Below, one piece after another: positions 13,298 to 36,700 of a stretch of DNA of 64,000 bases (position 1 is the first letter of the stretch; each line of letters starts with the position of its first letter). The position numbers and the translations under genes are program-made. Where the stretch lies: NCBI RefSeq assembly GCF_000189635.1, contig NW_002476212.1:310001-374000 (forward strand), written 5' to 3'. The notes below the pieces were generated by a model. The model made no database searches. It saw only the letters and a program-made list of their open reading frames with translations, and was not told the DNA's origin. This DNA is from Tetrahymena thermophila SB210. Its lineage: Eukaryota > Ciliophora > Oligohymenophorea > Hymenostomatida > Tetrahymenidae.

Positions 13298-16200
13298 TCA
13301 GAAATTATTTTTCATGTTGATTTTTGAAATAAAAGAAGATTGTTGCTTTTGACCTCTCTCAGTCATAAAATTCGTATTACTTTAATCTAATTATTATCTA
13401 TTAGAAGATTAATTAAAATTAAAACTATTATTTTAATCTACAATATCATTTGTATAACTTTTTTCATGAAAGCCTACATTGCCTTCATTAATACAATTGT
13501 TAGAAGCAGAGAAAGAGACATTAAAATTTAAATCATTAGTTTAATGTACTTATTAAATAGTGCCTTCTTTTTCTATATTTTCTTCTTAAGATTTATTAAA
13601 GGAAATACATGTTTTTTTGGCTTCATTAATAAATTTTTCCTAATTATTTAACATCAACTCATTTTGATTATTTTTTTCTGTTGAACTCTAATCGTACATA
13701 TTATTAGTAGCATTTTAAGTGACTTAATTGTCTGCTAATTAACTGAGGTCTTATTGATTCTCCTATTAAGAAATAGAGCTTGAAGAAGAGGATGAAGATG
13801 CTTCATCTTACAAAATAGTAAGAGTCTGTTTTTTGTTATAATATTCTAGTCCAATATTTTCTTTAGAAGCTTGTTTTGAGCTCTTTTTACCCTTGTTTGC
13901 TATTTAAATAATTCTAAGTTAATTGGTTCTAACTCTTTTCTATATCATTACATTGTCTTTAAATTTTTGTTAAAAATCTTCCTCCAATTTTTTCTTTTCT
14001 TCTTCTCTTTTTTACCTAATTTTATTGATAAATAAATGTAGTGTAATGATAAAAGTTAAATATTTTATTTACCTCTTCTTCTCTATAACGTTTTCTATAA
14101 TATTACTAATGTTGTGTTTAGGATAGTAAAATTTATAATTTCTCATAGTGTCATCGATTGAATCTTAACTTATAAGCTAGTTCTATATCAATAGCTGATT
14201 ATAGTATTATTATTATTAAGCAATTTATTCATTTCTTTTATCTCCTTCTAATTAATTTTGATTAGCTTGATAATTTTTATTTATTAGCATACTTTCAAAT
14301 TCTGTTCCTTTGTTTGAAAAAATAGAAGGATTCATATTATTTGGAAGTATTTACTTCCTATTATTAGCTGTTTTATGAGCATATTAAATTTTATTTTAAT
14401 TCATAATTTAAAGAAACATAGAAATTATGTCAACATTTTTTTAATCTTTTTACTATTCAGATATAGCTTATTCGTTTTTTTACCCATTTTACTTTTGTAG
14501 CTTTTTATAAAGAGACCAAATGCTACTACAATTTCTCTTTTATGAAAGCCTCCTCTAATCACTTAAATTAGTTTGCTAGTTTAATAATGATCTTCTAGTC
14601 ATTTTTGAATTGAGCTGCTATTTTTAATTAGTACTTTATGCTGGAACTATTATCTTGATCTGCTGCTCAATTTAATTTTTATTTTAATCATCTTGTTTAG
14701 TTTAAATATATTCTTCTAATTCAATATTTGAAAAACAGCGAGGCTTATCTATTTTAATCTCTATCTAATTTATGTTGTTATCTATATTATTACTCATGTT
14801 ATTACTAATTGAAGGTCTGATATTCTCTTCTTATTTATCATAGTCAGAAATGTCTAGACTTTCTTCAATGTTTAAAATCAAATTCTATTCATTATTTTAA
14901 TGAATTTGTTAATTTTAGCTATCTTAATTAAATTTTTTATTTGCATTGGCCGACTTTATTGATAAGTGTTTTCTGGTTGATCTCTATTCAAAAAATTTAC
15001 CCAACTCATTTTCTTAAATATTAAAATCTTTATTTTTTTCATCATTTCTACTATTGCTACGGCATTCAGTTTCGTTTTCATCATCATCATCGTAGTCGTC
15101 ATCTTCAAAATCAATATCAGAGGAAGACACAGATTCATCATTATCAGACTTTCCCATTTCTATAAAATATTTTCTAAAATAAGCTCTTATATCTTCCATA
15201 TTATCGTTAACGAAATCCTCCATTCTTACCTAACAATAATAATTTTTTGATAAAGTGCTGTCCTTTTTTTAGGGTTTCTTTCTTTTGTAGATTTATCTTT
15301 AATTATCTCTTCCAGTTGAAAACTGCCTAATAATATTAAACTTTGAAGGTACATAATGAATCAAAGGGCAAAGATATAATTAATGATCGTATTGCTAACA
15401 GCACTAACATTTACTCATAACAGAATTCTTTTCCTTACTGTAAAATATTTAGTCTCTGAGCATACAGTAAATTTCATGGTCATCAGGAAAATCTTTTAAA
15501 AGATTAAGAAAATCACTTCTTTTGATCTTTAATAAAGTAGTAAATTCTAGACTTCTTATGTTGATGTCTCTACTTTCGCCTGTAAAAAAGCTAATTTCAC
15601 CAAAAAATTTACCTGGTCCTACTGTATATAGAGAATTAATAGTTTTCATCTTTTTATTAAAAGGTGTTTTTTGGTAAGTGAATGCCTCAACTTATCCTTT
15701 TTCAATAAAGTATATAGATAAATCATCTTAATCACCTTTTAAATATATAATTTCTTCAGGTGTGCATCTTACTTCTTTAATCAAAGGTAATATTTTTTAC
15801 ACTATTGTATCACTAAAATTGTTGCTAAAAATGGGGCTTTCTCTTTTTTTTTTTAAAGAAGGTTTAAAAAATTATTAGACAAAAGCTATTAAAATTGATC
15901 AAAAAAATATTTAAAAATGCTATTTATTAATTGATAATACCTCAAAGCTATTTTATTTGCCTCCATCAAAAGTGTATCTTTTAATTTATGTGAGAGCTAG
16001 TCTAAAATTTTTAACTACAAGGATATTGTTAATTAAGTTGATGAATACAAAGTAATTAATTGTTTTTTACTTCTTAATCAGTATTGTTAGACTTTTCTTC
16101 TTTCCAATAGTATTCTAGATATTCTCTTACTTAATACTGCAAGTCTTTTGAAATCGTTTTATTAGTCATATAGTTATTAATAATAAACATATTAGCTTTT

Positions 16201-17595
16201 ATTTCATTGTCTAACTTAAAAAATTGTTCGAAAATATTCCCAATAGAATTTACACTATAAGCAAATTAACCGCATGCTATCATCATATTTACAATACATA
16301 GAAGCTTTTCTGCTACTGTCTTTGGAGAGATATCCCCGTACCCAACAGTGATCATCGTTACTGTTGAAAAGTAATATGAATATATATACTGTACATACCA
16401 ATCAGTATGAGAAATATCTACTGCATCCATCCAAGTATCAGTGCTTCCATTCTTAATTTGAATAAATCCAATTATAAGCCATGCTAGAGCGGAAATATGC
16501 AAATTTAAAACTATACTAAAAAGAAGTTTAACCAGAGAAATTATATTGCTTGTTAAAGCACTCAAAGGAAATTCTTCTTCAACCCTCTTAAATACTTTAT
16601 TGAATTAGTGAACCTTTTTTGTAAACAAACAAAAACAATTAAATACTAAAATAACTCGTTAGTCACTTGAAATAATTTATTTTAACAAGTTTAAATTTGA
16701 AATAAAATAATAAAAGAACTAAGCAAGCAAACAAAATTAATTATGAGCAAATGAATAAACATATATCTACTCTTTATAACTTAACTATTTTTAAATAAGC
16801 TTTAAATAAAGTTCAAATATTAAAAATAAATAAATATAAAATTAATATTTTTACCTTACAGAAGCAAGTAAGTATGACAAACCTGTAAGCCTGATAGGGC
16901 TATGAAGGATTAATGGTTTGGTAACTTAGGCAATAAATAAAGAGAGGGATGTTAGCTATTATATCATACTTAAAATCAGAGTGAAAATATTACATGAATA
17001 TTGTTTTTCTACTAAAAATTAGTACACCTTTTAAAAAGCAAGCAGTGTTTAAATTTACAAATATTTCAATAATTAAGCTTAAAGGAATAATAGAGTAGAC
17101 CAAAAGAGAAGGTACTAGTTGCATAAGATCGACTTAAAAAATAAGATGAATAGGTACAATAAAAATAATGCATATACTTTAAATCATTTAAGTAAGATCC
17201 CAGACTAGTTTTATTCGAGAAGATGGATTGAAAGGAGGAAATATTTTATTGAATCTTTCAATCAAACTGTCCTCTTTTTTCTCTGAGAAATCATCCGATT
17301 AATGCTTGGATTATGAATCTTCAGAAATTACAATAGAAAGGTCATTCAGCATTTTAAATTTTTCATTTTTAAGTTTTTAGTAGCGTCTTCCTGCTGTCTT
17401 ATCAATCATATTACCAATCTTTTACTTCAATTTAATATTTTAAAGAGCTGTTTTTAAATCTTTCTTATTAAAATCCATTAATTTATCTTCATTGAAATCA
17501 TTTTAATTTTTTTAATCAACTACCTACTCATTATTCCCGTTAATTTAAGTTAATTTATAGTTTCTTATTTAAAAAGTATTTTTATTTTATAACAT
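13298..17595 (-). CDS. Cyclic-nucleotide-binding-domain K+ channel A, 1281 aa
   Basis: Five exons: complement(16855..17595, 16071..16613, 15941..16014, 14073..15842, 13298..14015), 3846 nt and in phase. Order: cytoplasmic N-terminus (1-127); S1 near 128-153; S2 ~163-183 ending NLNTACF; S3 ~207-226; a weakly charged S4 ~236-258; S5; and pore with selectivity filter TVGYGD at 336-341, which marks a K+-selective channel. S6 contains MMIACGQFAYSVNSIG. A C-linker and a cNMP-binding fold follow (~454-590), with FFGE at 532-535 and Arg544 in the phosphate-binding cassette. A CCHC motif (C598, C601, H606, C611; 15368..15409) comes next. Then a conserved MEDFVNDNMEDIRAYFRKYF block, an acidic Asp run and a ~600-residue Asn/Gln-rich tail. 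It is a tandem paralogue of B and C. It should act as a membrane tetramer; the ligand is unknown. Confidence 0.94.
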
Positions 17596-18348
17596 TTTAA
17601 ACAAATTTTCTGTTTTTTCTTGTTTTATAAAGTTGCTTATTTAATAATTAATTAAGGCTAATAATTCTACTAGAAAAAATAGTTAAAATTTAGTAAGGAC
17701 TCAATTAATACAATTTAAAGAGGCAATCTAATCATAAATTATTATAAATTTTTTACTATTTAACTCTTGGAAACTATAAATCTTAGCCTAAATAAAATTA
17801 ATAGTTAGTTATTTTTAAAAAATAATTACCAAGAATATTTCATAGTTAAACAATATATTATTTAGGCTGACAAAAAATTATTTTTTTTTAATAACTTAAA
17901 AATTTAAGTTAATATATTTTTATTTTATTGAATTTTCATTTAAAATTAATAAAAGCTGTACCCCCATTTATTTAATTTTTCTGAGTAAAACAAACAATTA
18001 TTTTCTTCTTTCTATTTAATAAAAAATTATATAAAATATTTGTAACATTAAAGAATATAATATTGATACATGGTATAAAAGATTATTTTTATGATATATT
18101 TTTTGAATTAATTAAATTGCAGGTGTATTTTAAAAACCTATTACATTTTATGATGTACTTTTTATTTTATTTTTCGAAAATATAATGTAGGTATTTATTT
18201 AATAAGTGAAAGAGCTTACAAATAAAAGAAAAATTTTTAATAAAATTGTATTTTTTTGAATATTAGCTATTAAACAGAACATAGAACAAACAAACAAACA
18301 TTTATTTGATTGATATCATAGAAATTATTGAAAATTTGAAGTTTTATT
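17596..18348. other. Intergenic between channels A and B
   Basis: About 750 nt of AT-rich sequence upstream of channel A and after the channel B stop. It has a few TTATT and CAAACAAACAAACA-type repeats (near 18287-18300). No gene was seen. Confidence 0.7.
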
Positions 18349-21300
18349 TCAAATATTTTCATTGCTAAATTTTAATTTATGCATAGAAACACTCTCTGAT
18401 TGCTAACCAAAGTTGAGTTTTATGCTATCAAGATCACAAGTATCGTTACACTTGCTATATTTTGTTTGAAAAAATGAATTGTAAATTTTAAATTCTTTTT
18501 GTATTGGCTGTACATACATTTAATCATCTTATTCTATATCTTCATCGTTTTATTTATCTTCTTAATTAAGTTAAATGGTAGGGTCTCTTTTCAGATAATC
18601 TTTTTTTGATTAATTATCTTATATTTAAGAATTTGATTAGTTTTCTTTAAATTGTTCTTGATTCTATTATTTTAAAACTGAAAAGCGGTTTTTGGATGCT
18701 TGAGAGCTATTTTCTATTTTAGATGTTTCAGATGAACAACTACTTTAACCATCTTCTTCATTTATACTTTTACTTTTAGTGTTTAATTTAAAACTCATAA
18801 GTTTTTAAATTTTATCAAGCTTTCTGATGTCACTTGAAATTCTATTTAAAGGTCTTTTATAAGATCTATTAGCAATTTAAACAACCTTAACTTAACCTGT
18901 CTTAGCCCTAGGTTTAATATTAATATTCTAAAGTAATTACTTTTAAAAAATGAGCTCTATTCTTTTTTTTTCTTCCTCACGTTTTTATCTATATTGAAAA
19001 CATTAAAAAAAGAGGTAAAATAAAGTCTTGAAAATTTTTAAATTTAGAATTAGATTTTTGAAAAAAAAGCAAAGTTTAGTTTAGAAAAACTATTGTTTTA
19101 TGTAATATTAATTTATTTTTAATATTTATCTTAAATGATTTTAAACAATTTCTTTTTTCTTTAAAAAATAAATATCAAATTTTATAAAAACAATTGACAA
19201 AATTAAGTATTTGATAATAATTAACCATCAAATAGGAAGAAATAATAGAATAATATAAGTAAAAGAAAGAAATAAATGATTAATTACCTTCTCTTTTCTA
19301 AAACGTTTTCGATAATATTTGACAAGTTATGCTAAGGATAATAAAATTTATAATTTCTAGCTGTATCATCTATGGGCTCTTAAAAATTTTATTATTATTA
19401 ATTTTAGCTTTAAAACATCATGTTTATGGGTGATTACTCTCTTTGTTTATCTTACTCAGATTAATATGTTTGCTTTTTGATAAGATTATCTCTTTGATTT
19501 GTGTTAGCTTAGCCAAACAAATTACTTTACTATTATTACAAGTGCTAATTAGGATTTCCTAAAGAAGGTTATTTATTAAATTGATGATTAGGATTTCCGC
19601 CTAAATATTAATTTTAATTTAGTTTCATCAATTCAAGTATCGTTTCTAAAGGATCAATATTTCTCTCTCTAATTATGTCAAAAATAGATTAAGCAATACT
19701 ATTTATACTGCTTCCTCTATGTTTTTTCTATATACTAAAAATACTTTCACTCCTATTATTATGAATTTTCGACATCTTTTTTGTATTTATTGTGTTATGC
19801 CTTGATTGCTTTCTGGTAATACTCGATGGTATTATTACATTTTGTTAATCGCTAGTATTAATTTTTTCTTCTTCAGCTAAAATATTTTTACTTGAGCTGA
19901 CCAATTTATCTTCAGAGCTAACTTAACCTTTTTTTTAATTTTCTTAATTTTAATTATGAGCTTCTAAATCTTTACTTTATTAACTAACCATTTTTTAATC
20001 TAAGCCAATTACTATTTTCTATGAATGGTTGCTTGTGCTCAAAGCTAAATTTTATAATTGATTATTTATGTTTAAAGGATTTGACCTTTATGCTAAATTT
20101 AGAAATAGTTGAGATTTTTTTGACACTTAATTTTAAGGATCTATAAAATCTTCTTAATCACAATCTTCTAGCTCTTCTTCTTCTTCATCATCACCATACT
20201 CTTCAAATATGTCTGAAGAAGGTATTGAATCGTTTGAATCTATTCTTACCATTTCAATGAAATATTTCCTAAAGTAGGCTCTTATTTCTTCCATATTATC
20301 ATTTACAAAATCTTCCATCCTTACTTAATAGTCATAGTTGTGAAAATATGTATTTTCTTTCTTCTTGTCTCTCCTTCTTTTAATTTTTTCTCTTGGTTAA
20401 TCCCTGCCTGTAGAATGTAGTCTTATAATATTAAACTTATTCGGAACATTGTGTATTAAAGGACAATATGATATCGAATGTTCGAATTCATTGCAGCATT
20501 AACATTTACTCATAATAGAACTCTTTTCGCTATTAAATGTTGCAGAGTCTCGAATCATACAAAATATTTCAAAGTCATCTGGACTGTCTTTAAGTAAAGT
20601 CACTAAATCAGCTCTTTTAATTTTCAAGAGAGTAGTGAATTCTAAACTTCTTATGTTAATATCCCTAGGTTCTCCAGTAAAGAAGCTATACTCTCCAAAA
20701 AAATCACCTTTACCTATCGTATATAGAGAGTTGATAGTTTTCATTTTCTTGTTAAAAGGTGTCCTTTAATAAGTGAATGCTTCAACTTATCCTTTTTCAA
20801 TAAAATATATTGCAAAATCATCCTAATCACCCTTGAGATAAATAATTTCCTCAGGAGTACATCTAATTTCTTTAATCAATGGCACAGTCTTTTATATTAT
20901 TTACTCACTAAAATTTTTGCTGAAAATAGGACTCTCCCTATTCAATTAATGTGCAAAAGTTTTATTTTGGAATTTGAGAATATCAATTTAAAATCATAAT
21001 TGATATTAAATATACCATCGTACTCTTGAATAATTGAATAAGAGATGAAAAAAAAAAATAATTTTTCTAAAAAATTCTCTTTTCAATGAATTATCTTATT
21101 TATTTAGAGCAGTTAATAAAAATGTAGCATTGAAAAATGAAGGTGTAATTACTTATTTACTTATTTATGATTACAAATTTTTAAAAAAAATAATAAAATT
21201 CAATAAAAAAAAATATTAAGAAAAATTTCACTCTTATTTTAGAGAATAAAAGTAATCATATGAAAAAATTTTTAATCTTAATTAGAAATTCTCTTAATAT

Positions 21301-23033
21301 GGAATTCTCTTATTCAAGAACACTTACTGGTAGAAGATTTATTAGTTAAATTTACCTTAAAGCTATTTTATTAGCCTCCATTAATAGTGTTTCTTTCAAC
21401 TTATGTGAAAGTTAATTTAAAATTTTAACCTAATTATATTAAAAATAATAATGATAAATTTTGAATAGAAATATTGATTACTTCTAAATCTGTATTATTA
21501 GATTTCTCTTATTTCCAGTAATATTCTAAATATTCTCTAACTTAATATTATAAATTTTTAGATATTGTTTTATTTGTCATGTATCTATTGATGATCTTCA
21601 TATTTGCTTAAATTTCGTTATCAAGTCTAAAGAATTGTTCAAATATATTTCCGATTGAGTTTACACTATATGCAAATTGGCCACATGCTATCATCATATT
21701 TATAATACTTAATATTTTTTCTGCGATAGTGTGAGGAGAGATATCTCCATAGCCAACTGTTATCATAGTGACTGTGGAAAAGTAGTATGAATAAATATAT
21801 TAAACGTGCCATTCAGAATTTGCAATACTTGCTGCGTTCATCCAAGTATTAGTTTCTCCTTATTTAATTTAGATAAATCCTATGATAAGCCAAGCTAATG
21901 CTGAAATGTGCAAGTTTAAAATAATACTCAAAAAAAGTTTAACTAGTGAGATTATGTTACTAGTTTAAGTGCTTAGAGGAAATTCATCCTCTACCCTTTT
22001 AAACACTCTATTGAACTGATAAACCTATTAATTAATTAAATTTTTAAATAAATTGTTATCATATATAATTAATTAATTTTTATTGAATTGTCCTTCAAAA
22101 AGCCTAATTTTTAATAGTTTACCAAATAAGATAAAAGTAGATTATATTGGCTAATTTTTTAATCTATCTTTGTAAAAAACTGCATACTTTTAAAATCATT
22201 TTAAAATATTAGTTAATGTGAAAGTTACTTATTTGATAGAATTTAATGCTAAAGCTATTATTTAAATGTATCATTTTATTAATCAAATTTACTTTGTAGA
22301 AGCAAGTAAGCGTTATAAATCTATACAATTAGTACTATTAAGATGGATCTAACTTTGAATAACAAATGCAATAAATGAATAAGGGAACATTAGCTATAAT
22401 ATCGTACTTAAAATCTTGTCTTAAATAATTCTTAAAAATAATTTTTCTGTTATTTGTTAAGGTTCCTTTTAAGAAACAAGCAGTATTTAGATTCACAAAT
22501 ATATCAACCATTAGACTTAATGGTATGATAGTGTAGACAACATAGGGAGAAACTAATACCATAAGATCAATTTCAAAAATTAAATGAATAGGTACTATGA
22601 AAATAATACAAATACTAAAAAACATTTGGATAACATCCCATAAAAGCTTAATCCTAGAGCATGGGTTAAATGGAGGAAATAATTAATCCAACTTTTCCAA
22701 GAAACTAAGATCATTTTTATCTACTAAATATTCAATTTCGTTTTTAGAGCTCTACTTGTCTTATAAAATTATTGCTGCATCATTGAGCATTCTAAAATTT
22801 TCTTTTTTAAGCTTTTAGAGACGCCTAATAGCTGTTTTATCAACAATATTGCCTATTTTTTACTTGATTTTTATACTCTACAAAGCCTACTTTAGATCTC
22901 TTTTACTGTTACTTATATTGTTATCATTTTAAATTTTTTCTTTAGTTTTTAAGGTCATTTAGCCTTTCAGACTAACCTTCTAAGTGAAAAGCCTCAATTG
23001 TGCTTGATTTAGTTTGCTTTAATTATCTTACAT
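18349..23033 (-). CDS. Cyclic-nucleotide-binding-domain K+ channel B, 1215 aa
   Basis: Five exons: complement(22293..23033, 21482..22024, 21356..21429, 19288..20937, 18349..18988), 3648 nt and in phase. The first three exons are 741, 543 and 74 nt, exactly as in channel A, so intron positions were inherited from one ancestor. The filter is TVGYGD at 336-341. The cNMP-binding fold has FFGEYSFFTGEPRD. A CCHC motif KCQCCNEFEHSISYC at 20463..20504 has the same spacing as in A and C. The MEDFVNDNMEEIRAYFRKYF block and an acidic stretch follow. The tail is Asn/Gln/Ser-rich and much less conserved, but keeps NYKFYYPQHNLSNIIENVLE and the basic KREEEKK exon junction. S4 carries few Arg/Lys. Role by family: K+ conductance in the plasma or ciliary membrane, possibly modulated through the C-terminal sensor. 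Confidence 0.94.
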
Positions 23034-23371
23034 AAGTATAAAAATGAAATAATGGTCTTTAAATAAATAGTCTTTTTATTATTCTTACTTTTTAATTTTA
23101 ATTAAGTGAAAGGATTTGTAATAAAAACTAGTTATTTATGCTGATTTATTTAATACTATTTTGGTAGAATTAATACTGCTGTTATCAAACAGACTTCTTG
23201 AAATTACAATCAATATTTAATCACTGTTATAGTGATCTTATTTGAAATATTAAAATAACATAAATTATATGCAACAAATTTGTTTAATTTAACAATACAA
23301 ACAATCAACATACATTTTAAATAGTTAAATCTTCTTATTTATAATAGCTTTTATCATAATTAATTTATTTT
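23034..23371. other. Short intergenic between channels B and C
   Basis: Only 338 nt separate the channel B start from the channel C stop. It must contain the B promoter and the C 3' UTR. It is AT-rich with no other feature seen. Confidence 0.7.
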
Positions 23372-26298
23372 TCAATCCTTTACAAAGCTATTATATTTAC
23401 ATATTTTATTGTATTCTAATTCATTAATACTTTGTGCTTCATAATTTGCTTCAACATTTTTATACATGACTGCAAATGGGGATTAAGAATTGTTATGATT
23501 ATTACTTTTATCTTGGCAATCTTCCATTTACAACGTATTATATTTACTAAATTTTGATGCTGAAAGAGAGTCTACATCATTAAAAAGCAGTTGCATCTAA
23601 ATTTTATGGATAGGATCTTCTTTTTCAACTTCATCTTCAACTATATTTTCAATTTTCTTTAAACTTGTTTAGCTCTTAATATTCTACTTTTCTTATTGTT
23701 AATCATCACTGTTAGCTTTGCTTTAATCCAAATCTTCTTATTACTAATTGTTTAATTGTTTGTTGTTTTGACTGTCACAATCGAGATTTTTAAAAGATTT
23801 TTTAGATTTACGGGATGATTTTATTGTTTTTTATTTATCAAGGAAGACTTATGATTATTCTTCAGAGCTTTTAGATGAAGAATCATCATCATCTTAAAAT
23901 TAACTTGCTGCATTTAAATTTTTAGTTACTAACTTTTAAAAGTTTGTTATTTAAGATTATCTAGAAGCAGCAAATTTTGAAGACCTATTTGCAATCAGAA
24001 CTTTTTGTTAAGTTTACCTTACCCTTTTTGTTATCATGGCTGACTAGTTGAGTTACTATTAAAGGTGTGTTTCCATTTTTTTCCTCTCATCCTCTCTCTT
24101 TTATCTTATTTTATAATAAAATTTAAAACTAGCTCAAAAAATTTTTTCTAATTTTATCCAACATAAAAAATTTATCATATTTTTCTTCATCAATAACATT
24201 TTTCTACATAAATAACTGGAATTAGTTAAGAAATGCTTTTATTCAATAAATTGTTATTTTTTTGTAATTATTGATTGCAAATTTAGCAAATTTATAGGCT
24301 TTAATGTAAATGAAAAATTTTTTTTTTAAATTAAAAAAATGTTTTATTTTGTAAATTGGATTTATCAAAAGAAATCATAAACAAAAGAGATCATAAGCTT
24401 TGATAAATTAAATAAATACCTTCTTTTTTCTATAACATTATCAATAATGTTAGAGATGTTATGCTAGGGATAGTATAGCTTATAATTTCTCATGATATCA
24501 TCTATTGATTCATAATTTATAGCTAAACTTAAAAATGAATGATGACCATTCTCAGATGGCTTAGAATATTAAGTATTTTTTTGATAATTCATAAAATTTT
24601 CTCCTTATTATTAAAAAATTGGCTTGGGATTAGTAAATTATGTGCTGTTTCGATTTTATTTATGGTTATTTAAAATATTTGTGGTTAAGATATTATGTTT
24701 CTACATTTCTATTAAAGCAGTATCCAGATCGATATTTAAATTATTTATAAAATCTAAAATCTGTTATAGATGAGTTAAACTGCAAGATTAAATATTTTGT
24801 TTCTTATTATTCAGCTGCTGATTTACAGTACCTTATTTTTGATATTATAATTTTTAAAGTTTTTAAGAATTCAGAGTGGTTTATCTTGTTTTTTTCCTAG
24901 TGCCTGCTTTCCTATTTAAATTAATTATATTTTGTTCTTATGATTCTTAAATATTCTATCCTTCTTCTGCCTTTAAATTTATGCATGATTCATTTTCTTA
25001 TCCCTCCATAATCATTGAACAAGCAGGCTTTTTTATTTAAACTTAAAGCTAATTTATTTTATCATTAGATATTTAAGTATTCGTATTTTGCACATTTTCT
25101 TCACACTTGTCATATTCAAGACTACTAAGTATCATTTGAAAACTCTAATTATTTCCTAAATTTTAATTATTTGTCAAAGGTTAACTAACTTTCTAGCTTT
25201 CTAAGAGACTGAATCCTACATTCATATTTAAATTATTATTTTAAAATATAATATTTTTATTTATTTATTTATAATTTACTTTAAATGTTATTAATTGAAA
25301 TCTTTTATTGCTAAGTTCCAGTTTTGGTTATTTACGAATTAGTCTCACTTTTATTCTCATTTTAATTTATTTACAAAAATTTTTAAACTTCTTCTTCTGT
25401 GCATTTATGTTTTTTATCTATACTTTCTAAATTTTACATATCATCTTCAAAGTCTTCATCATCCTCGTCTTCATAACCTTCAAAATTAATATCTGAAGAA
25501 GGTATAGATTCATTTGAATCAAATCTGCCCATTTCAATAAAATATTTTCTAAAATATGCCTTAATTTCATCTAGGTAGTCATTCACAAAATCTTCAATCC
25601 TAACTTGGAGATCATAGTTATTATAAATTGCATGTTGACATTTTTTATTTCTGTTTCTTTTTTTTGTTTATCGTTTTTAATCTCTACCAGTTGAAAATTA
25701 TCTTATAACACTCAACTTCTATGGGACAAAATGAATAACTGGGCATAGAGATAATGAATGATCGTATCGGTCACAGCACTAACATTTGTTCATTATCGAG
25801 CTCTTTTCATTGTTATAAGTTGCTTCATCTTTAAGCATGCAAAAAACTTCATAATCATCAGGGTAATCTTTTAAAAGGTTTATGAAATCTCCTCTTTTTA
25901 TCACCAATAAAGTTGTAAATTCTAAACTTCTAAAATTAATATCTCTAGGTTCTCCAGTGAAAAAGCTATACTCACCAAAAAATTTTCCTGTGCTTAAAGT
26001 GAAAAGTGAGTTTACAGTCTTCATTTTTTTGTTAAAGGGAGTTTTTTAATATGTAAATGCCTCTACCTATCCTTTTTCAATAAAATATATCGATAAGTCA
26101 TCTTAGTCACCCTTCAGATAAATAATCTCTTCTGGAGTGCATCTTATTTCTTTTATTAGAGGAAGAATTTTTTATAGCACAGACTCACTAAATGTTGTAC
26201 TAAAAATAGGGCTTTCTCTTTTTTAAGTTAATCAAATAAATAATATTTAGTTTTTTCAGTATCATTTGTAAAGTGAATAAATTATATTTGAAAAGTAA

Positions 26299-26361
<63 letters not shown>

Positions 26362-27866
26362 ATTAATAAACACAAACCTGAGAGCTATTTTATTGGCTTC
26401 CATAAGCAGCGTATCTTTCAATTTATGTGATAACTATTCCAAAATTTTATTCTAATAAAAAGAAAATTGATTAAATACTATCATGTATGTTGAAAAAATT
26501 ATATACTTCTAATTCACTATTGTTTGCCTTTTCTTGTTTCCAGTAGTATTCCAAGTATTCCCTCACTTAATACTATAAATCTTTTGATATTGTTTTGTTG
26601 GTCATGTAATTATTTATTATTTTCATGTTAGCTTTAATTTCATTGTCTAATCTAAAAAATTATTCAAATATATTTCCTATCGAATTGACACTGTATGCAA
26701 ATTATCCACAAGCTATCATCATATTTACTATACAGAGTACCTTTTCTGCTACTGTTCTAGGAGAAATGTCACCATATCCAACAGTAATCATAGTAACAGT
26801 AGAAAAGTAATATGAATAAATATATTATACATACCAATCAGCGCTAGATATACTTGCTCCATCCATCCACGTATTTTAACATCCTTATTTGATTTAAATG
26901 AAACCCATAATCAACCATGCAAGAGCAGAAATGTGCAAATTTAAAATTATGCTAAACAGCAGCTTTATTAAAGAAATCACGTTGCTTGTAGTTGTGCTTA
27001 AAGGAAATTCATCTTCTATCCTTTTGAAAACCTTATCAAATTACAGAACCTTATTATTTATTTTATAAGTATTAATCTTTAATATTCATTTTTAAAAACA
27101 TTGATAATTAAATAGTTAATAGTTTATGATTGATTGTAGAAGTAGAATTAATGAAATAAATATATACTTTGTAAAAGATTGATAAAATAATGAACCTGTA
27201 AAATTGATAATCTTCTGATTAATCTGTCTTTACATAAATGAGACAATAAATGAAAAGAGGAATATTTGAAACAAGATCATATTTGAAGTCTTAAAGGAGG
27301 TAATTTTTTAGTATTATCGGTCTATTTGTTATTAGAACTCCTTTTAAAAAACAGGATGTATTCAAGTTGACAAATATTTCTATTATTAAGCTAACTGGTA
27401 TTATGGTATATACAATTACAGAAGGTACTAATTGCATTAAATCTATTTGGAATACGAGATGTATCGGAACTATAAAAATGATACAAATACTTAAAATCAT
27501 TTAGCTTATGTCCCAAATCAGCTTTATTCTAGAAGATGGATTAAATGGAGGAAATAATTTGTTTAATTTTTCTAAAAAACTGGCTTCTTTTTAATCTATA
27601 AAAAAGTCAGTTTAGTTTTTTGAATACTACTATTCTGGTACAACGATCGAAAGATCATTAAGCATCCTAAAATTTTCTTTTTTAAGCTTTTGATAACGTC
27701 TTGCTGCTGTTTTATCGACAACATTACCTATCTTTTATTTTAGCTTTATGCTTTGCAGTGCAGTTTTTAAATCCAATTTTGTTGGAATACTACCATTTTC
27801 TAAATTTGGATTGCTTTAAACTGTTTTGTTTATATCATAAACACTAAAGTTTTCTTTTGTAAACAT
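23372..27866 (-). CDS. Cyclic-nucleotide-binding-domain K+ channel C, 1260 aa
   Basis: Six exons: complement(27168..27866, 26507..27049, 26378..26451, 25280..26217, 24420..25215, 23372..24104), 3783 nt and in phase. Exons 2 and 3 keep the 543- and 74-nt lengths of A and B. The first exon is 42 nt shorter. C alone has an extra 64-nt intron (25216..25279) in the low-complexity tail. The filter TVGYGD is at 322-327. The cNMP-binding fold has FFGEYSFFTGEPRDINFRS. The CCHC motif KCQCCDRYDHSLSLC is at 25743..25784, with a conserved basic/acidic block after it. I chose ATG 27866 because no other ATG lies upstream in the open frame. The intron between exons 3 and 4 carries a long AAAT microsatellite. 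Same inferred role as A and B. Confidence 0.93.
26297..26364. repeat. AAAT tetranucleotide microsatellite
   Basis: About 16 nearly perfect copies of the 4-bp unit within the intron between exons 3 and 4 of channel C (26218..26377). It enlarges this intron compared with the matching site in B's shorter flanks. Likely length-variable. Confidence 0.95.
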
Positions 27867-28673
27867 GGTGTTTATCTTTTTCTCTTTGTTCTTCTTATCT
27901 TTCTGGTTTAATCTATAAAAGTTTAAAATCTCCTGCTGCTATTTTTAATAATAATAAATACAAGCTTATTGAATCTCCAATACCTTAACAATAAAGCTAA
28001 TTTTTTAATTTAATTATTTTCATATGTGAATGATATAGTGCTTTTTGATTTAAGGACAGTTTTTGTGTTAATTAACTTAATAATATTGCCAATTCTACGT
28101 AAATTAAAATTATTTGCATATTTTAAGTGTATTCAATTAAGTCAATTATCATCATTTACATTTACCCTTCCAAAGCCAGTTAAAATTTAATTCATATTAT
28201 ATTATAAGTTTTGATAAAAAAAAATATAATTAGAATTATTTCATTTTATTTGAATATTTATAAAAGAAATTTATTTAATTTAATTTTAAATATAACTTTC
28301 ATATACTTATAAATAATATTTAAAATGTAGATAGATATTACAGATCAATAAATTTTAGTTTTTGTATTAAAAAATTATAAATTTAAGCTTTTTGAAATTA
28401 CTTAAAATGTTATCTTAATTACATTTATTTAATAAAAACCAAGAAAATACATTAATGTCAATTTTCATGTTTTTCAAACAAAAAATAATTGACATACCTA
28501 TTTATTTTATTTATTTGGAGTTTTTGTTTGAAATAAAAAATTAATAATTTGTTGATGTTTTATTAAAATAAGAACAAATAATTTACAAATATATTTTACA
28601 AGAATTTGCTAAAGTTTTAACTATTATAACGAGTTAATTGATTTAAATATTTGATACGACTGGAATATGTTTT
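27867..28673. other. Intergenic upstream of channel C
   Basis: About 800 nt, AT-rich. The frame of channel C stays open for some way upstream without an ATG, so a longer first exon cannot be excluded. No other gene was seen. Confidence 0.6.
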
Positions 28674-29426
28674 TCAAACTAGTTGCTATAAAATAAAAAT
28701 ATTTTTATATAAATTCTAATCTTATTTAATTTTACCTCCTTAAGCTCTTCATGACCATCCTTCTAAATATTTTAGTTATACAAAATTAATTAATAGAAAT
28801 TCAAAATAAATATTAATTTTACCAAAAAAAGACTGAGTATTATGTAAAAAAATCCAATAACAAAAAGTATAAGCGAATAAATGAAAGGAGCAAGAAGAGA
28901 ATTAAACTCGTTATTAATAGAAAAAACGCTCATGCTAGATAAACTATTTATTTAATAGAATTTCATATTTATAAATTTAATAAATAAATGATTTTTTTAA
29001 TTTACAAAACGTTAAATATTCCTCTTCCAAGCAGAGTTGTTAGGAAAAAGAAATACTTCTCCATAAAGTCTCTTTTGAATTCTATCACTAAAAGCATTAC
29101 GCCTAAAAGTCTAATAAAAATATAAAATGTTATAATCAAAAAAGCTCGCAATTTATTCTAAAATGAATTATTTACATCATAAAAAATGGCATGAAAAAGT
29201 CGAAGCATTACCAAGTATCTAATATTTTAAATATTTATAAAGAGACTATTCTCCATACACCCGCAATAGCTAGAACTAGTCTTTTTTTTTTTAATCATTA
29301 ATGTCAATTATTGTTTTTTATTTTATCAATTAGATCATTTCAATAAAAATTTTAAAATAATTTATTGTTGGTTTACGCTGAACAAATGTTAATTATTTTG
29401 ATGACCTTGCCAGTAGTAGCAGACAT
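28674..29426 (-). CDS. Small four-helix COPI-associated (TVP15-like) membrane protein, 122 aa
   Basis: Seven tiny exons: complement(29377..29426, 29261..29280, 29176..29218, 29006..29110, 28823..28934, 28736..28762, 28674..28685), 369 nt with all phases agreeing. The product starts MSATTGKVIKIINICSALV and has four hydrophobic segments (near 10-23, 27-46, 55-72 and 85-110). It contains the family signature LGRGIFNVF after the second helix, preceded by an IEFKRDFMEKY loop. It ends in the charged tail KDGHEELKEQLV. This matches the COPI-associated/TVP15 family of small Golgi membrane proteins implicated in vesicle traffic. The exons are 12-112 nt, so ordinary gene finders would probably miss it. 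The 42-nt intron 2 uses a GTGTAT donor. Family call is by pattern, not by search. Confidence 0.84.
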
Positions 29427-29891
29427 ATTTAATTATCTCTTATTATTAAACTGTTATTTGTTTTTTAACTTGATTGAAAATTGATTAACCTTCTTTTATT
29501 TTAATTATTATTATTATTATTAATACTAAAAGTAATCTTGTAATAATGCATTACTTATAACCTAGTTAATTATCAATCAGCTTACATCTAAAAATATTAC
29601 ATAATATGTTTGCAATATTACTAATTGAGTTCAACCAAATATTTCAATTAGCTTACATTTATTCACTCTACAAATATATTAGCACAAAAAAAATTTTGCC
29701 ACTTAATCATACTTATTATTTCAATTTATTGCGAACTAATAATTTATTTATTATTCATCCATTAACACAAATTACATTTAACTATGATTTATTTTACATT
29801 TTTCATATTAATCAAAGTATAATAAAAAAATTTCAACAAAATAATTAAAAAATGTTAAAAATGATTTAGTTTTATCTTTTATTATAATTTA
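29427..29891. other. Intergenic between TVP15-like and pseudokinase genes
   Basis: About 465 nt. An 80-codon plus-strand frame (29606..29848) exists here, but it is low-complexity and shows no conserved feature, so I regard it as chance. No RNA or repeat was seen. Confidence 0.6.
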
Positions 29892-32836
29892 TCAATTTGA
29901 ATTTAAAAGTTTCTGTTTTAATTGCTTATCTAACTCCTCCAATTCTAATTTATAATATTATTGAGAATATTAATTTATTGTTAAGTTAAGAGAAAAAATT
30001 ATAATTTATTTATTATTTTCTAATTCATAGATTATTTTATTGAAAAAAAATTATTATTGATTTTTATTAAATGTAATAAAATTTACCTTATGTTAATAGT
30101 TGTATTGGAGAAGATAAATTTTTTTGAATTTAATGTTTATTTTTAGTTTCTAAGATTTAAGATCGGATGTAATTAATTGAATTTTTATTTGTATCAGTAA
30201 TATTAGTTGTATTTTATATTTAACTTTAATGATTATTTGTATTTCTTGTTGTTTTATTTTGGGTGTTAATTGTTGAAAATATTTTATTTTATTTTTCATT
30301 TTAAATGTTCATATTCATTCTTTTTTATGAAATTTAAGATAAATTAATAGACTTATTTTGAGATTAATTCTCATTTGTTGGATAAATTCTTTGCGAATAA
30401 CTTTACTGTTAACCGTTATCTAGTATTGAAAGCTTAATATTTGCCTTTTTTAATTCATTAAAAATTATAGTTTAATTCAAATTTTTAATATAATTTTACT
30501 TAAATCTATCCTATTACTTTTTACTGTATTTACGAATTATAATTGTTATGCATAGAATTTATGCTTGTAAAGTTAACTTAATCATTCAATCTGCATTTTA
30601 TTCTTTCGTCATCATAATTTTATTCATCGTTGCAATTTGTTACAGCTTTTAATATTTTTGTTATCGATTTATTTTGCTATTTAGGATTAAGAATATTTTC
30701 ATAAAATAACAATCCAATATCAACAAAACAGTCAGCAAATTAAAATTTTATCTCTTATTTAGGATCATTAACTTTTATTTTAAAAGTTAATTAATAAAAA
30801 TTTTTAAGATATGATTATATATTTAAAAATCATAAAATTAAAAATAATTATCTTGTTTGATGAGTTAACTATATTAATTTTATAAAATTTAAAAAGTTTT
30901 ATTTTATTTTTTATTTTAACTCTAAGTACTAAAAATTGAATAAATATTTATTTTAAAAATTATTTGTAAATGCTTAGTATATTCATGTAAATTTTTAATC
31001 TTTATTTATATAAATTAAAAAATAAGCTGAAAATCTACCTTCATCTTCTGGAGAGTTTTGAAATAAAAAATATAATTCTATATGAATAGGATTGATTTTC
31101 ATAGCTCTACTAAGCTTTTGTGAATCAAATTTTAGAGATACAGTATGATCGAATTCTATCTAGGATTTAGTATAACTGAATTTAGGTGATATAATTGTAG
31201 AAAATGAAAGAAAAGAAGAATCGTAGCATATATTAAATACAGCTTAAATAAATAATTGATTATTAGATTCTTCTTAGAATGTATGCAAGATATCTTACTC
31301 ATTTTATATTTTTTATTACTTTAAGGAATCAAACCAAGTTGCTTTTTTTAACTTGATGATATATTTTTCTAAGTTTTCATAATCAAATTAAATTAAATTT
31401 AATAAATTGATTGATAATTCACAATTTTTTTCTTCATTTTAAAATTTTTAGAACGAATTCATGTTATTTTTCTTTCTTTCTAATATTTCTTAATATGTAC
31501 TATGCTGAGAAAATTAACTATCACTATCTATGTCTTTCTACCACCAATCTTGCTTTTCTTATTCCTATACTATTTTTTATGATATTCCATTTTAATCTTC
31601 AACAAACTTATTGACCTCTTAGTGGAATATTTATGATTCCTCTAATAGACTCTTTAAGCTTGTTCTAATTTAAGGATCGAATTATAAGGTATTAAGAATG
31701 ACATATTTTTCATATTCAGTCCTGCAATTTAGTATGACAGTATTAATATAAGATATGTTATATAATTCACCTTTTGTTAATATTGCTTAATCTATTGCTT
31801 TTTAAATATCTTCCTCAATATAAATTATTTCTGACTTATCTGGAATTCCTAGAATTTCAAAATATTTTATAGCTTGTTAATTAAAATTTTCGCTTTCAAA
31901 AAGTGGCTTTTCAGTAATAAAGAGCTCACAAAAAATGCAACCTAAACTCCATATATCTGCCTTTTTTGCTTCTAAATACCTTAAAATTAAACAAAATAAA
32001 TAAATAAATTTTATTTCCTATTTACATATTAATAATATACAATTTATTTATAAGTTTTTTTCCATAGTTATACTAAAAGAATATTTCTGGAGCTGTGTAC
32101 TTAGCTTTGGTCTATTAAATAGCTGACAAGTGATAAGATTCTTCGATATCAATATTAAATGGTTTTAAATAAACCTTTTATTCATTTTAAATCCAAATAG
32201 ACTTAGGATTCAACTCAATATATTAAACATCTTGTTTTTTTTTATAAATATCATTTAATAATATAATAAAATTATATATATAGTTTTATACCTAAATCTT
32301 GTAAAAATTGCAAGCAATTTAATAGATTAATAAAAATGTCTAATTTAGTTTTCCTATTTATTTTGCAGAAGTGTAGCAAATCCACTAAACGAACAATATC
32401 TTGATGCTAAGTATCATCTTTGTAAGGCTCAACAACATAAAGATAAATATCTTTATTTAATTATTATTATTTCTTCAAAAGTAATTTATTTCTTTAAAAT
32501 TACCTCCATTTTCTAGCGATAAAAAAATATCATCTGCAATCACAATATTATTTTCGAAGCATTTCATTAAGCTAACAAACCTCTTTACTACTAAATCGCT
32601 TTTTATGCAAAACTCCTTTCTTGTAATCTTTATTTTTCTCCCAGTTTATTTTATGTTGCCATGCAGAATGTATCTATCTCTTACTAATTTTTCTAAACAT
32701 AAAAAATGTAAATGAAAAGGCTAAATGAATTTAAAAAAAGAATACAGTGAGTAATTTCATATTCATTTAATTGGATTTCGAAGTTTTTAAAAAACTAAGA
32801 TAGATTATACTATCTTATTAAATCTACGTCTGCCAT
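29892..32836 (-). CDS. Pseudokinase with C-terminal C2-like region, 750 aa
   Basis: Eight exons: complement(32746..32836, 32504..32692, 32292..32450, 32041..32230, 31039..31979, 30500..30771, 30087..30444, 29892..29944), 2253 nt and in phase. The C-lobe of a protein kinase fold is clear: APE at 193-195, ADIWSLGCIFCELF at 217-230, and a late RTSL near 'DPQIRTSLKSLL'. The catalytic loop reads YIELNPKS (150-157) where active kinases have HRDLKPxN. The Mg-binding DFG position reads PFN (170-172). Both catalytic Asp are therefore absent, and the N-lobe lacks a clear glycine loop. Residues ~430-570 have the beta-strand pattern of a C2 domain (QLFIQAVFNICYD, then IHIELYFLFQN, then CFVDIGLLFYE). A Gln/Asn-rich tail ends in a Leu/Lys helix. 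Likely a scaffold, not an enzyme. Partner unknown. Confidence 0.8.
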
Positions 32837-33749
32837 TTTATTTAACAAATGAAATTAGTAAAATTTCTTTAAAAAACAAATACAAATTAATTAATAACGC
32901 AAATTCAATTTATTTTCAAATTTAATAATTGAAAGCTCAAAAAAAAACAAACAGAAATGTGATTTAATTCTAAAATTCTCAAATACATTATCTATTTATA
33001 AGTCAAATACAAAATATTAATTCTACTTAAATGATAAAGGCAATTCAACATTCAAAGATAATTTCTTTATTCATCAGCATTGTAAAATAAATATTTAAAA
33101 AAAGTAAAATGCTTTTTAAGTCTTTATCAATTTAAAAATTTAATCTAAAAATGTTTAAGTAATTTATTTTTAAAATTATTTTTAATTTTTATTTAAATGT
33201 AGTTAATTTTTTAAAGTATAAGAACCTTAGGTCTTCCTTAGATTGATTACTCATTTAAATTTAAGGATATTACAAATAAAACTAACCATATCAAATTTAA
33301 ATAAAAAATAAATTAAAAAAAATATTTTTATAGAAAAATAAATTTTTAAAAAATGCATTAACTCTTACATTAATCTAAATAATTTAATAAGTTAAACTCA
33401 ATTATTTTTGAAAAATAACTATTCAATAATAATATTTGATTGAAATTTAAAATAACTAAATATAGATCATACATACATAATTAAATTTACAAATAAAAAT
33501 AATAATAATAAATGTTTATTTAATAAATAATAAAGAAAAGAAAAAAATTTATTTATTTGGAATAAATATATTTGGTTTTTAAATCAAATTTTTAACAAAT
33601 CATAAAATAATATACTTATTAGGTGTTTAATATTTGTTGAAACAGAAGCACCAATCTCACTATTCTAGATTAGATTTTATTATTAAAAGAACTTTAACTT
33701 TCTCATTAACTATAAGTGGCTAATAAATTTTTAATTTGTTCTAAGTTAA
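32837..33749. other. Intergenic, AT-rich
   Basis: About 900 nt between the pseudokinase start and the channel D stop. No gene, RNA or repeat beyond A/T runs was seen. Confidence 0.65.
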
Positions 33750-36700
33750 TCAATCATTTGCTTCAGATTTAAATTAAGATTTCTTTAATGTGCTCTGCAT
33801 ATGGAATGTTTTATCTTCTTATATATTATCTAGGCTAAATTTAGAGAATAAGCTAACACCATTTTTAAGGGATACAGGTGATCTAGAGGGAGTAACTAAT
33901 TTTTAGAATTTAGGAGAAATGAATTAATCTTCTTCATTTTGTTGAGATTAAATTGATAAATTATAATTTCTCGATGAACCATTTGCTAAGACAGGATCAA
34001 AGCTTGAACTTTCCAAAGAACCTATCTTTGAATCTATTTTCTTTTTGCTAACTAAGTTTGAGTTGAATCCAGGAGAATTTAAATTCTAATAAAAATCCTA
34101 ATTTGAGAATTTTTTAAATTTAGGGATGTTGACTAAAGTCATTTTGGTCATAATTTATCTTTGTCTTCTTATTATTTTTTGGTTTTAAATATCTACTGAT
34201 TGTTGCATTTAGTCTTGATTATCTTAGTTGCTAGTTTCTTAATCTTAGAATTTTTTAATTAAATTTTCTATTTTAGAATTACCTAAAATTTTTGTTCTCG
34301 TAAGATTTTATTTTAAAATTTCAGACCCTCTTTTTAAAAATCTTGTATGAAGTACATTTTTTCTTCTCTAGGGAGGAGATATGTTGCAAATTGTTTATCT
34401 TTTAGAAAAATCTTCACTATTTCCTTTGATCAATATAGACTGGTATCTGCTACTATTTTAATCTCTTTAGGAATTAATATAGTCAGTAATATTATCTTAA
34501 TACAAAAGTTGAGGCCTTAGGGATGGAGAAATATGATATTCATCCACCTTTTCTAATTGATACATGATATTTTAGAAGTTTCCATGTGGGAAGTAGTAAT
34601 TAAAATGTGCTAATACATCAAATCTCTTATCATCTATAATAGTGTCTTTAGATTCATCTTTATTATTATTAAAATCTAAGTTCACTCCTGCACTCACTAA
34701 ATTCTACAGTTAAGTGGAAAAATTATTATTTTATTCTTAATTCTAATCTTTATTAAAAAGCTTAAAAATGGAGAGAGGACTATTCACTTAAGGTTTAATT
34801 GAATTCTTTTTTTATTGCAAATACTCAAACAGTGCATTTTCTAGGTTTTGCTAGAAATTTGTTTATTAATTGTTGTTATTATTTCCATTAAATTTTGATA
34901 TAGGGCTATTAAATGGTGAAATATTATTATTATTATTATTTTTCTCATAAAAATTATGCACAGATTCTTATATTTTAAAGGAATTTTCGTTATTTTGCTA
35001 TAAATTATTTAATTCTCCTTTATTATAGCCACTTGGCTTTAAACTTGCTTTGAAATCACTGATTTGACTTTTGCTAAATTCTTATTGACTTTGAATGATT
35101 GAAAGACCAAATTTAAACTTATCAGAGCTTACATTATTTTTGCTATTTGAATTATACATCTTTTAATTCTGAAACTTTTGTGAGATACTTTGGGTATTTC
35201 CAAATTCCTTTCCGACTTCATCATTATCATCATCTTCATAATCATATGAATGAGAATGATTAATTACTAATTTAAAATCTTTATTTTAGCTTTATTATCT
35301 CCTTGGTTAATTTAATATTGAAATATCTTCATTTTAAGGGTTTTCAAAACAATTGCTTTAGTTCAATTTCATATGGTTATTATCATCCGAATCAATTGTT
35401 AAATCACTTTAGTTCATCAAATCATAATACCAGTCAAGTTCTAATAATCCTTAATTTTAGTTTTCAAAGTATTGGAGTGCCTTCTTTTTAGCAAAATTAT
35501 GTTAAAGCAAGGTTTGATATTTAAATTTTCTTCTCCTTCTCTAAATTAAATAATGTTTTAAAAATTATTTTTTAGAACTTAAATTTAATATTTAAAAATA
35601 AATATTTGGATAATTTAACTTTTTTAATAAATTCATAAAACTAAAAAAACTTTTCAAAAACTGATTAAGATTGAAGAATTATTTTAATTTATTAAAATAC
35701 TCCCTGATTATAATTGTGTGTTGTTCTTATAAAAGTGAAAAAAAAAAGAAATAAAATTACAAATTCTCTTTTCCTCATTTAAGGAGATGAAGTAAGATAC
35801 CTACAAATGATCTTTTATTTGTCAGGCGAATAATGAATCCATTAACAATTCTCTAGAAAATGATATGCAAAGCAAGATGGACACTTTTTTTGAATAATTT
35901 CTAATTCGTTGTAAAAAGTTAATTTATCTTTGATATAGCAAAATGTTTCATAGTCTTCCTTATGATCTTTCAATAAATTTAGGAAGTCTTCTCTGAATTT
36001 GATTTTAAATATTAACTGTATTAGAAAGTAGAATTGATAAATAATTAATTACCTCCTAATATAAAGCAATTTTGCAAAATCACGACTTCTTGCTGTGATC
36101 TTTCTATTAAACCCAGTAAAGAAATTCAATTCTCCAAAGTGTTCACCATCTTCATAGGACCTAATTACTTTTATTTTTGATGTAGCTCTACCTTACTAAT
36201 ACTTTTAATCAGCCATATCTATAATTTCATCAATGCTTCCTTTTTCTATGAAATAAATGCAACAATCATCTAATTCATTTTCTTAGTAGATCAGCTCTTC
36301 AGGAGTTGACCTTTTTTCCTTAATTAGCGGTACCACTTTTTGTATGAACTCTTATGAAAAATGATTACTGAAAAGCGGGGAGTTTGTAACTAGCTTATTT
36401 GCTTCAAACTTTAAGGATTCTCTAAGAAAATCAGACAATTGGTTGATAATTTAAGTTTCCATTTATGAATTATTTTAACTTTATTCTTTTAAGTAATATT
36501 CAACATATTGTCTAATTTAGTATTATAAGTCGGAGTTAATGTTTTTCATATTCATGTAATTCGTTATTACATATATATTTTCTTTTATTTCTGTTTCTGT
36601 TTTGAACACATCCTAAACTATAACACCAATTTAGTTCAAACTATAACCGAATTGTCCACAAGCTATAATCATAGTAATAATACATAATATAAGCTCTGGT

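Follow-up and report, generated by a model that had tools for sequence, protein, structure and literature searches.

Do the K+ channels of the ciliate Tetrahymena thermophila carry a zinc-binding mini-domain behind their cyclic-nucleotide-binding domain (CNBD), and what might it do there? The question is raised by a stretch of 64,000 nucleotides of the SB210 genome (hereafter, the window), in which a preliminary description reported a motif resembling a CCHC zinc knuckle directly after the CNBD of four channels, A to D. We translated the minus strand with the ciliate code, in which TAA and TAG encode Gln, and recovered the motif where it had been placed, as C-x2-C-x4-H-x4-C in channels A, B and C and as C-x2-C-x3-H-x4-C in channel D (Table 1). 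The downstream CP-x-IH-x-VP that had been described reads CPLIHYVP in A, CPLIHNVP in B and CPVIHFVP in C; in D, where only the IH had been claimed, the sequence is CQWIHYSP. The pattern C..C.{3,4}H.{4}C occurs four times in the six frames of the window, in channels A to D only, and residue shuffles (n = 200) gave 0.05 matches on average and one at most. All four genes have a CNBD over the PF00027 cut-off, with the K+ selectivity filter TVGYGD 5' of it. The end of the PF00027 match of channel D, read by eye, probably runs into an intron.

Table 1. Positions of channel features within the 64,000-nucleotide window.
Channel	Feature	Position	Strand	Basis
A	cNMP-binding domain (PF00027), phosphate cassette FGEISFFTGESRD	15494..15769	-	Pfam match
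B	cNMP-binding domain (PF00027)	20586..20861	-	Pfam match
C	cNMP-binding domain (PF00027)	25863..26141	-	Pfam match
D	cNMP-binding domain (PF00027), P0004 residues 233-318	36049..36306	-	Pfam match
A	K+ selectivity filter TVGYGD	16332..16349	-	sequence
B	K+ selectivity filter TVGYGD	21743..21760	-	sequence
C	K+ selectivity filter TVGYGD	26768..26785	-	sequence
D	K+ selectivity filter TVGYGD	36718..36735	-	sequence
A	CCHC knuckle CQCCQQYDHQLYLC, C-x2-C-x4-H-x4-C	15368..15409	-	translated sequence
B	CCHC knuckle CQCCNEFEHSISYC, C-x2-C-x4-H-x4-C	20463..20504	-	translated sequence
C	CCHC knuckle CQCCDRYDHSLSLC, C-x2-C-x4-H-x4-C	25743..25784	-	translated sequence
D	knuckle variant CPSCFAYHFLENC, C-x2-C-x3-H-x4-C	35845..35883	-	translated sequence
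A	further conserved His (CPLIH)	15356-15358	-	translated sequence
B	further His	20451-20453	-	translated sequence
C	further His	25731-25733	-	translated sequence
D	further His	35833-35835	-	translated sequence
A	basic tail after knuckle (+18 to +59 from first Cys)	15230..15355	-	sequence
B	basic tail after knuckle	20325..20450	-	sequence
C	basic tail after knuckle	25605..25730	-	sequence

The motif extends well beyond these four genes. Among 150 CNBD matches listed for the same genome, 87 were readable, and we found the knuckle in 63 of these (52 of 76 when the CNBDs brought in by the window or by a motif-bearing query are set aside). The exact motif is present in 60 of the 87 CNBD tails, whereas shuffling the tails predicts 0.004, and the three further knuckles sit behind or across introns. 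In the 60 loci, the first Cys lies 25-30 aa past the end of PF00027 (26-28 in 58 of them). On a tree built from the CNBD columns only, the 63 knuckle-bearing CNBDs make up one side of a branch with support of 99/94, which recurs in 97% of the bootstrap trees. In other words, the trait changed a single time on the sampled CNBD tree. We had also tried to recognise these CNBDs by a phosphate-cassette pattern; it was too narrow, missing 21 of the 63, and we relied on the tree. Of the 24 CNBDs lacking the knuckle, some might have belonged to another channel class. This reading was dropped because the K+ filter was absent upstream of all seven that have at least 900 bp of upstream DNA. The knuckle is associated with K+ channels and is a family trait of a large ciliate K+-channel family. 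Beyond this genome, a scan of genome contigs returned three bacterial CNBDs, none with a knuckle behind it, and no CNBD match on viral contigs.

A motif-bearing query added 51 tail matches, bringing the knuckle-family loci that were read to 114 (an intron interrupts one of them, which we read by eye). All 63 readable CNBDs of the clade retain the four ligand residues, as do all 51 further tails. The exact spacing is found in 109 loci; besides the intron-split one, four, all among the further tails, have another loop length, and only the loop from the second Cys to the His varies (x3, x5, x9 and x9). Across 112 pairs of close paralogues, the ligand codons show 184 synonymous and 0 non-synonymous differences. 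For comparison, the other columns average 27 synonymous and 46 non-synonymous differences in the same pairs. The ligands are invariant within this genome and under purifying selection. The Cys and His residues do not vary freely among relatives, here paralogues from one genome, and the earlier proposal that this conservation reflects function is supported.

The tail around the knuckle had been described as poorly conserved, which holds only in part. Parts of it recur across the family, namely Pro at +14 (81 of 107 rows of the family tail alignment), His at +17 (89 of 107) and, after the knuckle, a basic stretch. The codon of this fifth His differs by 41 synonymous and 2 non-synonymous changes in the 112 pairs, a strong constraint on a residue that does not belong to a standard knuckle. 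Since channel D shifts the middle His, we considered a ligand set made of C-x2-C plus C-x3-H; as the main reading it was rejected because all 114 loci retain the His of H-x4-C, while 18 of 107 rows lack the fifth His. Channels A to C have an extra Cys within the knuckle (CxCC), and another ligand set is therefore possible.

By profile comparison, the motif is a CCHC zinc knuckle. The genome has 71 matches over threshold to Pfam zf-CCHC (PF00098), of which 45 are in these channel tails by hand count; two relatives score 29.0 and 30.7 bits, over the cut-off. A PDB search with a profile built on 40 tails picks out HIV nucleocapsid, LIN28, TUT4/7 and AIR2. With PF00098, the family of retroviral NC, LIN28, AIR2 and TUT4/7, the channel tails share the ligand spacing and the Pro after the last Cys, besides the matches of many relatives to the curated model and of the tail profile to solved knuckles. 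They differ from it in that the knuckle is single-copy and belongs to a membrane K+ channel, where it follows a CNBD, and in adding the near-invariant fifth His (C-x3-H). Channels A to D themselves have no zf-CCHC match at E <= 1, and a second search with the tails of A and D gave none either. In spacing, D alone of the four deviates. AlphaFold modelled channel A, with the B and C sequences, at pLDDT 32. A 75-residue piece with four rows reached a mean pLDDT of 63, and about 73 over the knuckle; Foldseek found no PDB chain resembling this model, and neither prediction is good enough to judge the geometry of the site.

We propose that each subunit carries one CCHC zinc knuckle just behind the C-helix of the CNBD, the lid over the cyclic nucleotide, whose placement here we take from known CNBDs. 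The first two Cys, the His and the final Cys would most likely coordinate a single Zn2+ inside one subunit, and binding of the metal as such is very probable. The end of the lid helix would then be anchored in a small, rigid knob, with the basic tail leading away from it, and the knob would probably serve as a docking or assembly surface. This structural and docking role, and its coupling to cyclic-nucleotide gating, are inferences. Taken as a whole, a structural zinc mini-domain behind the lid helix, anchoring the basic tail and coupled to docking and gating, has in our estimate a probability of roughly 60%.

The knuckle and the basic tail might instead bind single-stranded RNA or DNA by guanine stacking, with RNA serving the channel as ligand or tether. 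The kin retrieved from the PDB are mostly nucleic-acid binders, and an aromatic residue (F, Y or W) directly follows the first Cys in 52 of 107 rows, 20 of which also have Gly before the His. The tail is basic, its median net charge being +7 per 42 aa; the figure is +2 for 18 CNBD tails lacking the knuckle and +3.5 for a stretch of the CNBD in 60 of the knuckle proteins. However, the pair of aromatic and Gly is missing in 87 of 107 rows, channels A to D have neither residue, one isolated zinc knuckle is usually a weak binder, and a basic tail near the membrane has other uses (lipid, ER retention); we judge nucleic-acid binding unlikely. The knuckle is kept with or without the aromatic of RNA-binding type, in agreement with a structural role shared by every member. 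It would be a long shot that an ancestral CNBD K+ channel of ciliates gained the knuckle once, and that it survived more than 100 duplications because it makes these channels respond to RNA or be positioned by it. If so, members of the C22/C33 type, which have the aromatic, the Gly and the basic tail, would be genuine RNA-binding ion channels.

Zinc could also lie between subunits, the Cys/His cluster being an assembly site as in the T1 domain of Kv channels. The knuckle has the position of the trimerising coiled coil that CNG channels have behind the C-helix, and the extra Cys of channels A to C and the fifth His could offer a ligand to a neighbour. Yet four ligands within 14 residues, nearly always at standard spacing, are enough for a metal held by one chain. 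The T1 site is similar in placing zinc in a cytosolic K+-channel domain, a placement predicted here, but it is N-terminal, inter-subunit and C3H1, with ligands far apart; we find such an assembly site distinctly unlikely. A thiol-rich CCHC site adjoining the gating lid might act as a redox or zinc sensor, its oxidised thiolates releasing Zn2+ and changing gating, but zinc knuckles mostly bind zinc tightly, and a sensor seems highly unlikely. Finally, there might be no metal site, the residues being kept by descent or packing as a disulphide or a hydrophobic turn; that a single genome and a single clade supply every row speaks for this. Against it, the ligand codons have changed only synonymously whereas the remaining columns on average vary freely, the His matches the Cys residues in its invariance, and the position is expected to be cytosolic; the absence of a metal is very hard to credit.

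Animal HCN, CNG and KCNH channels and plant CNGC and Shaker-type channels share the plan of six transmembrane segments, a K+ or cation pore and a C-terminal CNBD. Behind the C-helix, animal and plant CNBD channels have a coiled coil, an IQ site, ankyrin repeats or other tails; to our knowledge, none of those named has a zinc knuckle. No literature title among the matches listed describes one on any channel. The knuckle provides a family marker and, through Cys-to-Ser changes, a clean mutational handle for studying assembly and gating. It also lets one ask directly whether ion channels are able to bind RNA, or to sense zinc or redox state. In Paramecium, K+-channel genes number several hundred (PMC3283738). 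The Tetrahymena K+-channel family is large too, and a fixed knuckle behind the gating lid is a part that defines it, unmentioned in the channel papers searched.

Kannan et al. 2007 (PMC2246266) named CNB families 'Channel_protozoa' and 'Channel_Tetrahym.', which are, like ours, eukaryote/protozoan channels. Compared by eye, the phosphate cassette of 'Channel_protozoa', GEISFFTGLPRTASARS, resembles that of channel A, GEISFFTGESRDINIRS, and features of the type of their CNB family 12, PF00027 and an upstream K+ filter, are present in the four window channels. The word zinc is absent from the main text of that article, and its CNB family table passage gives no zinc motif. Searching the C-terminal exon of channel C against the PDB with phmmer (E <= 0.001) returned only 7w5z. 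Its chain C, a 'Cyclic nucleotide-binding domain protein', is similar in having a CNBD followed by ECYNCKKIGHISSSCPKTH; it differs in that the entry is Tetrahymena complex IV. This chain is encoded in the same genome, at C422:131238.

Translation of the minus strand with the ciliate code (table 6) recovered the CCHC motif (C-x2-C-x4-H-x4-C, the knuckle, with its Cys, Cys, His and Cys ligands) in channels A-D at the coordinates of the preliminary description. These were the sole matches to C..C.{3,4}H.{4}C in a six-frame scan of the 64-kb window, against a mean of 0.05 matches after residue shuffling within frames. The four genes were also confirmed as cyclic nucleotide-binding domain (CNBD) channels: all have PF00027 above cut-off and a TVGYGD filter upstream of the CNBD, and because of these two features they are, by sequence, predicted K+ channels. 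The motif does lie behind the CNBD, its first Cys being 25-30 residues past the PF00027 end. We also observed a conserved block, QVR-x-EDFVND...I-x-AYFRKYFIEM followed by an acidic run, which begins around 60 residues past the first knuckle Cys in A-C.

Positions in the window of features in the tails of channels A-D
Feature	Channel	Window position
Knuckle	A	15368-15409
Knuckle	B	20463-20504
Knuckle	C	25743-25784
Knuckle	D	35845-35883
Fifth His	A	15356-15358
Fifth His	B	20451-20453
Fifth His	C	25731-25733
Fifth His	D	35833-35835
QVR-x-EDFVND block	A	15155-15232
QVR-x-EDFVND block	B	20250-20327
QVR-x-EDFVND block	C	25530-25607

To assess the knuckle across the family, we searched the genome (101 Mb, 445 contigs, window included) with PF00027, which gave 151 matches; 150 were taken and the sequence was read for 87. 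The exact CX2CX4HX4C, and no other form, was found within 80 residues behind the CNBD in 60 of the 87, in frame with the CNBD end and without a stop between. Among the remaining 27, two (C89:12302 and C10:91785) have an exact knuckle in another frame, behind what we take for an intron. In C246:102123 the frame changes between the C-x2-C-x4-H and the last Cys, which is followed by CPHLH, in our reading a knuckle split by an intron. Including these three seeming intron cases (L006, L042, L080), 63/87 CNBDs bear the knuckle, or 52/76 without 11 pre-selected ones (three from the window and eight from loci brought in by the tail search, all knuckle-bearing). A genome search with the tail of channel C gave 123 places, 75 with sequence, of which 24 repeat CNBD rows. 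The spacing is exact in 47 of the 51 new places; in the other four every ligand is retained but the loop length differs (x3 in D, x5 in L019, x9 in L025 and L111). Only the CNBD set is without query bias, because the tail set came from a motif-holding query. Both sets combined, C-x2-C...H-x4-C is kept in 114/114 loci, paralogues of one genome, with exact spacing in 109; free variation of the Cys and His residues among relatives was thus not seen.

In the 107 exact rows the ligands are invariant through row choice, and therefore codon comparison is the better test. In 112 pairs at ≥50% identity (from 89 rows, hence not independent), ligand codons showed 184 synonymous and 0 non-synonymous differences; the remaining 66 columns averaged 27 and 46. 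Standard CCHC knuckles have no fifth His, whereas in the channel knuckle one is near-invariant four residues past the last Cys (+17 from the first Cys; 89/107 rows; 41 synonymous, 2 non-synonymous). The Pro at +14 had 51 and 16. Conservation is also high upstream, with D at -24 in 58/60 and E at -22 in 52/60.

The cassette strings of the 24 knuckle-less CNBDs suggest to us regulatory subunits of kinases and CNBD proteins of other kinds. A K+ filter was found upstream of 0/7 of those with at least 900 bp of upstream DNA, and of 36/48 such knuckle loci (61 had too little upstream DNA to be counted); the other 12 showed no filter in 1500 bp, for which introns may be the reason. We built a tree of 81 CNBDs (tail excluded, six short CNBDs omitted), on which knuckle presence requires a single change (support 99/94, found in 97% of bootstrap trees). 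The tree has few columns and does not distinguish a gain from a loss. A quick tree gives the same split (support 95).

Judged by profile, the channel motif is a zinc knuckle. Pfam zf-CCHC matched 108 places in the genome, 71 above cut-off. Of the 108, 57 (37 above cut-off) are in CNBD-channel tails and a further 16 (8), counted by hand, inside tail matches, resulting in 73/108 and 45/71. A CNBD on the list assigns 47 of the 57; all but one of these 47 share its frame and lie 72-84 bases behind it. By hmmscan, two of six tails exceeded the zf-CCHC cut-off (29.0 and 30.7 bits), one was slightly below (19.3), and three (A, D and one C112 tail) had no zf-CCHC match. A profile from 40 tails matched 49 PDB sequences at E≤1; 7w5z_C ranked first, then TUT7, TUT4 and HIV nucleocapsid, with AIR2 and LIN28 lower. 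Judged by the match ranges, with alignments inspected for three, these known knuckle proteins are matched on their CCHC part. Outside channel tails there are 26 above-cut-off zf-CCHC matches. Seven of these form a single-frame stretch (G000:C356:22272-22775), which probably encodes a nucleic-acid-binding protein of the CNBP kind.

The C-helix of HCN and CNG channels closes over the nucleotide, and from the distance between the PF00027 end and the first knuckle Cys we assume this Cys to lie behind that helix. Each subunit probably holds one structural Zn2+ there, which would make a rigid knob between the lid helix and a basic tail, and the knob may be used for docking or assembly. The tail has a median net charge of +7 per 42 residues, versus +2 for the 18 tails without a knuckle and +3.5 for a CNBD stretch taken from 60 of the same proteins. 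Alternatively, the knuckle may bind RNA. Of the aromatic and the Gly characteristic of RNA-binding knuckles, the aromatic is present in 52/107 rows and the two together in 20/107, but A-D have neither.

The zf-CCHC knuckle and protozoan CNBD channels are each already known, the latter listed as CNB families by Kannan et al. (PMC2246266, consulted in part). Their combination was not found among the titles of the literature matches listed, nor mentioned in the portions consulted of PMC7576140, PMC8670190, PMC3283738 and PMC2246266; automatic domain annotation may well show it already. A channel-type CNBD-knuckle sequence does occur in Tetrahymena complex IV entry 7w5z, as chain C, named 'Cyclic nucleotide-binding domain protein'. 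A later paper, in the portion consulted, assigns COX3 to Ymf67/Ymf68 (PMC10060162), and chain C is possibly mis-assigned. Over 91 residues this Tetrahymena thermophila chain matches G000:C422:131238-131510 at 96%, with four TAA/TAG, and we take the genome searched to be that of T. thermophila. In the genome search with the channel C tail, this tail matched itself at only 93%, with five TAA/TAG in 68 residues, so TAA/TAG seem to be scored as mismatches; the 96% would then be 87/91, and the two sequences otherwise identical.
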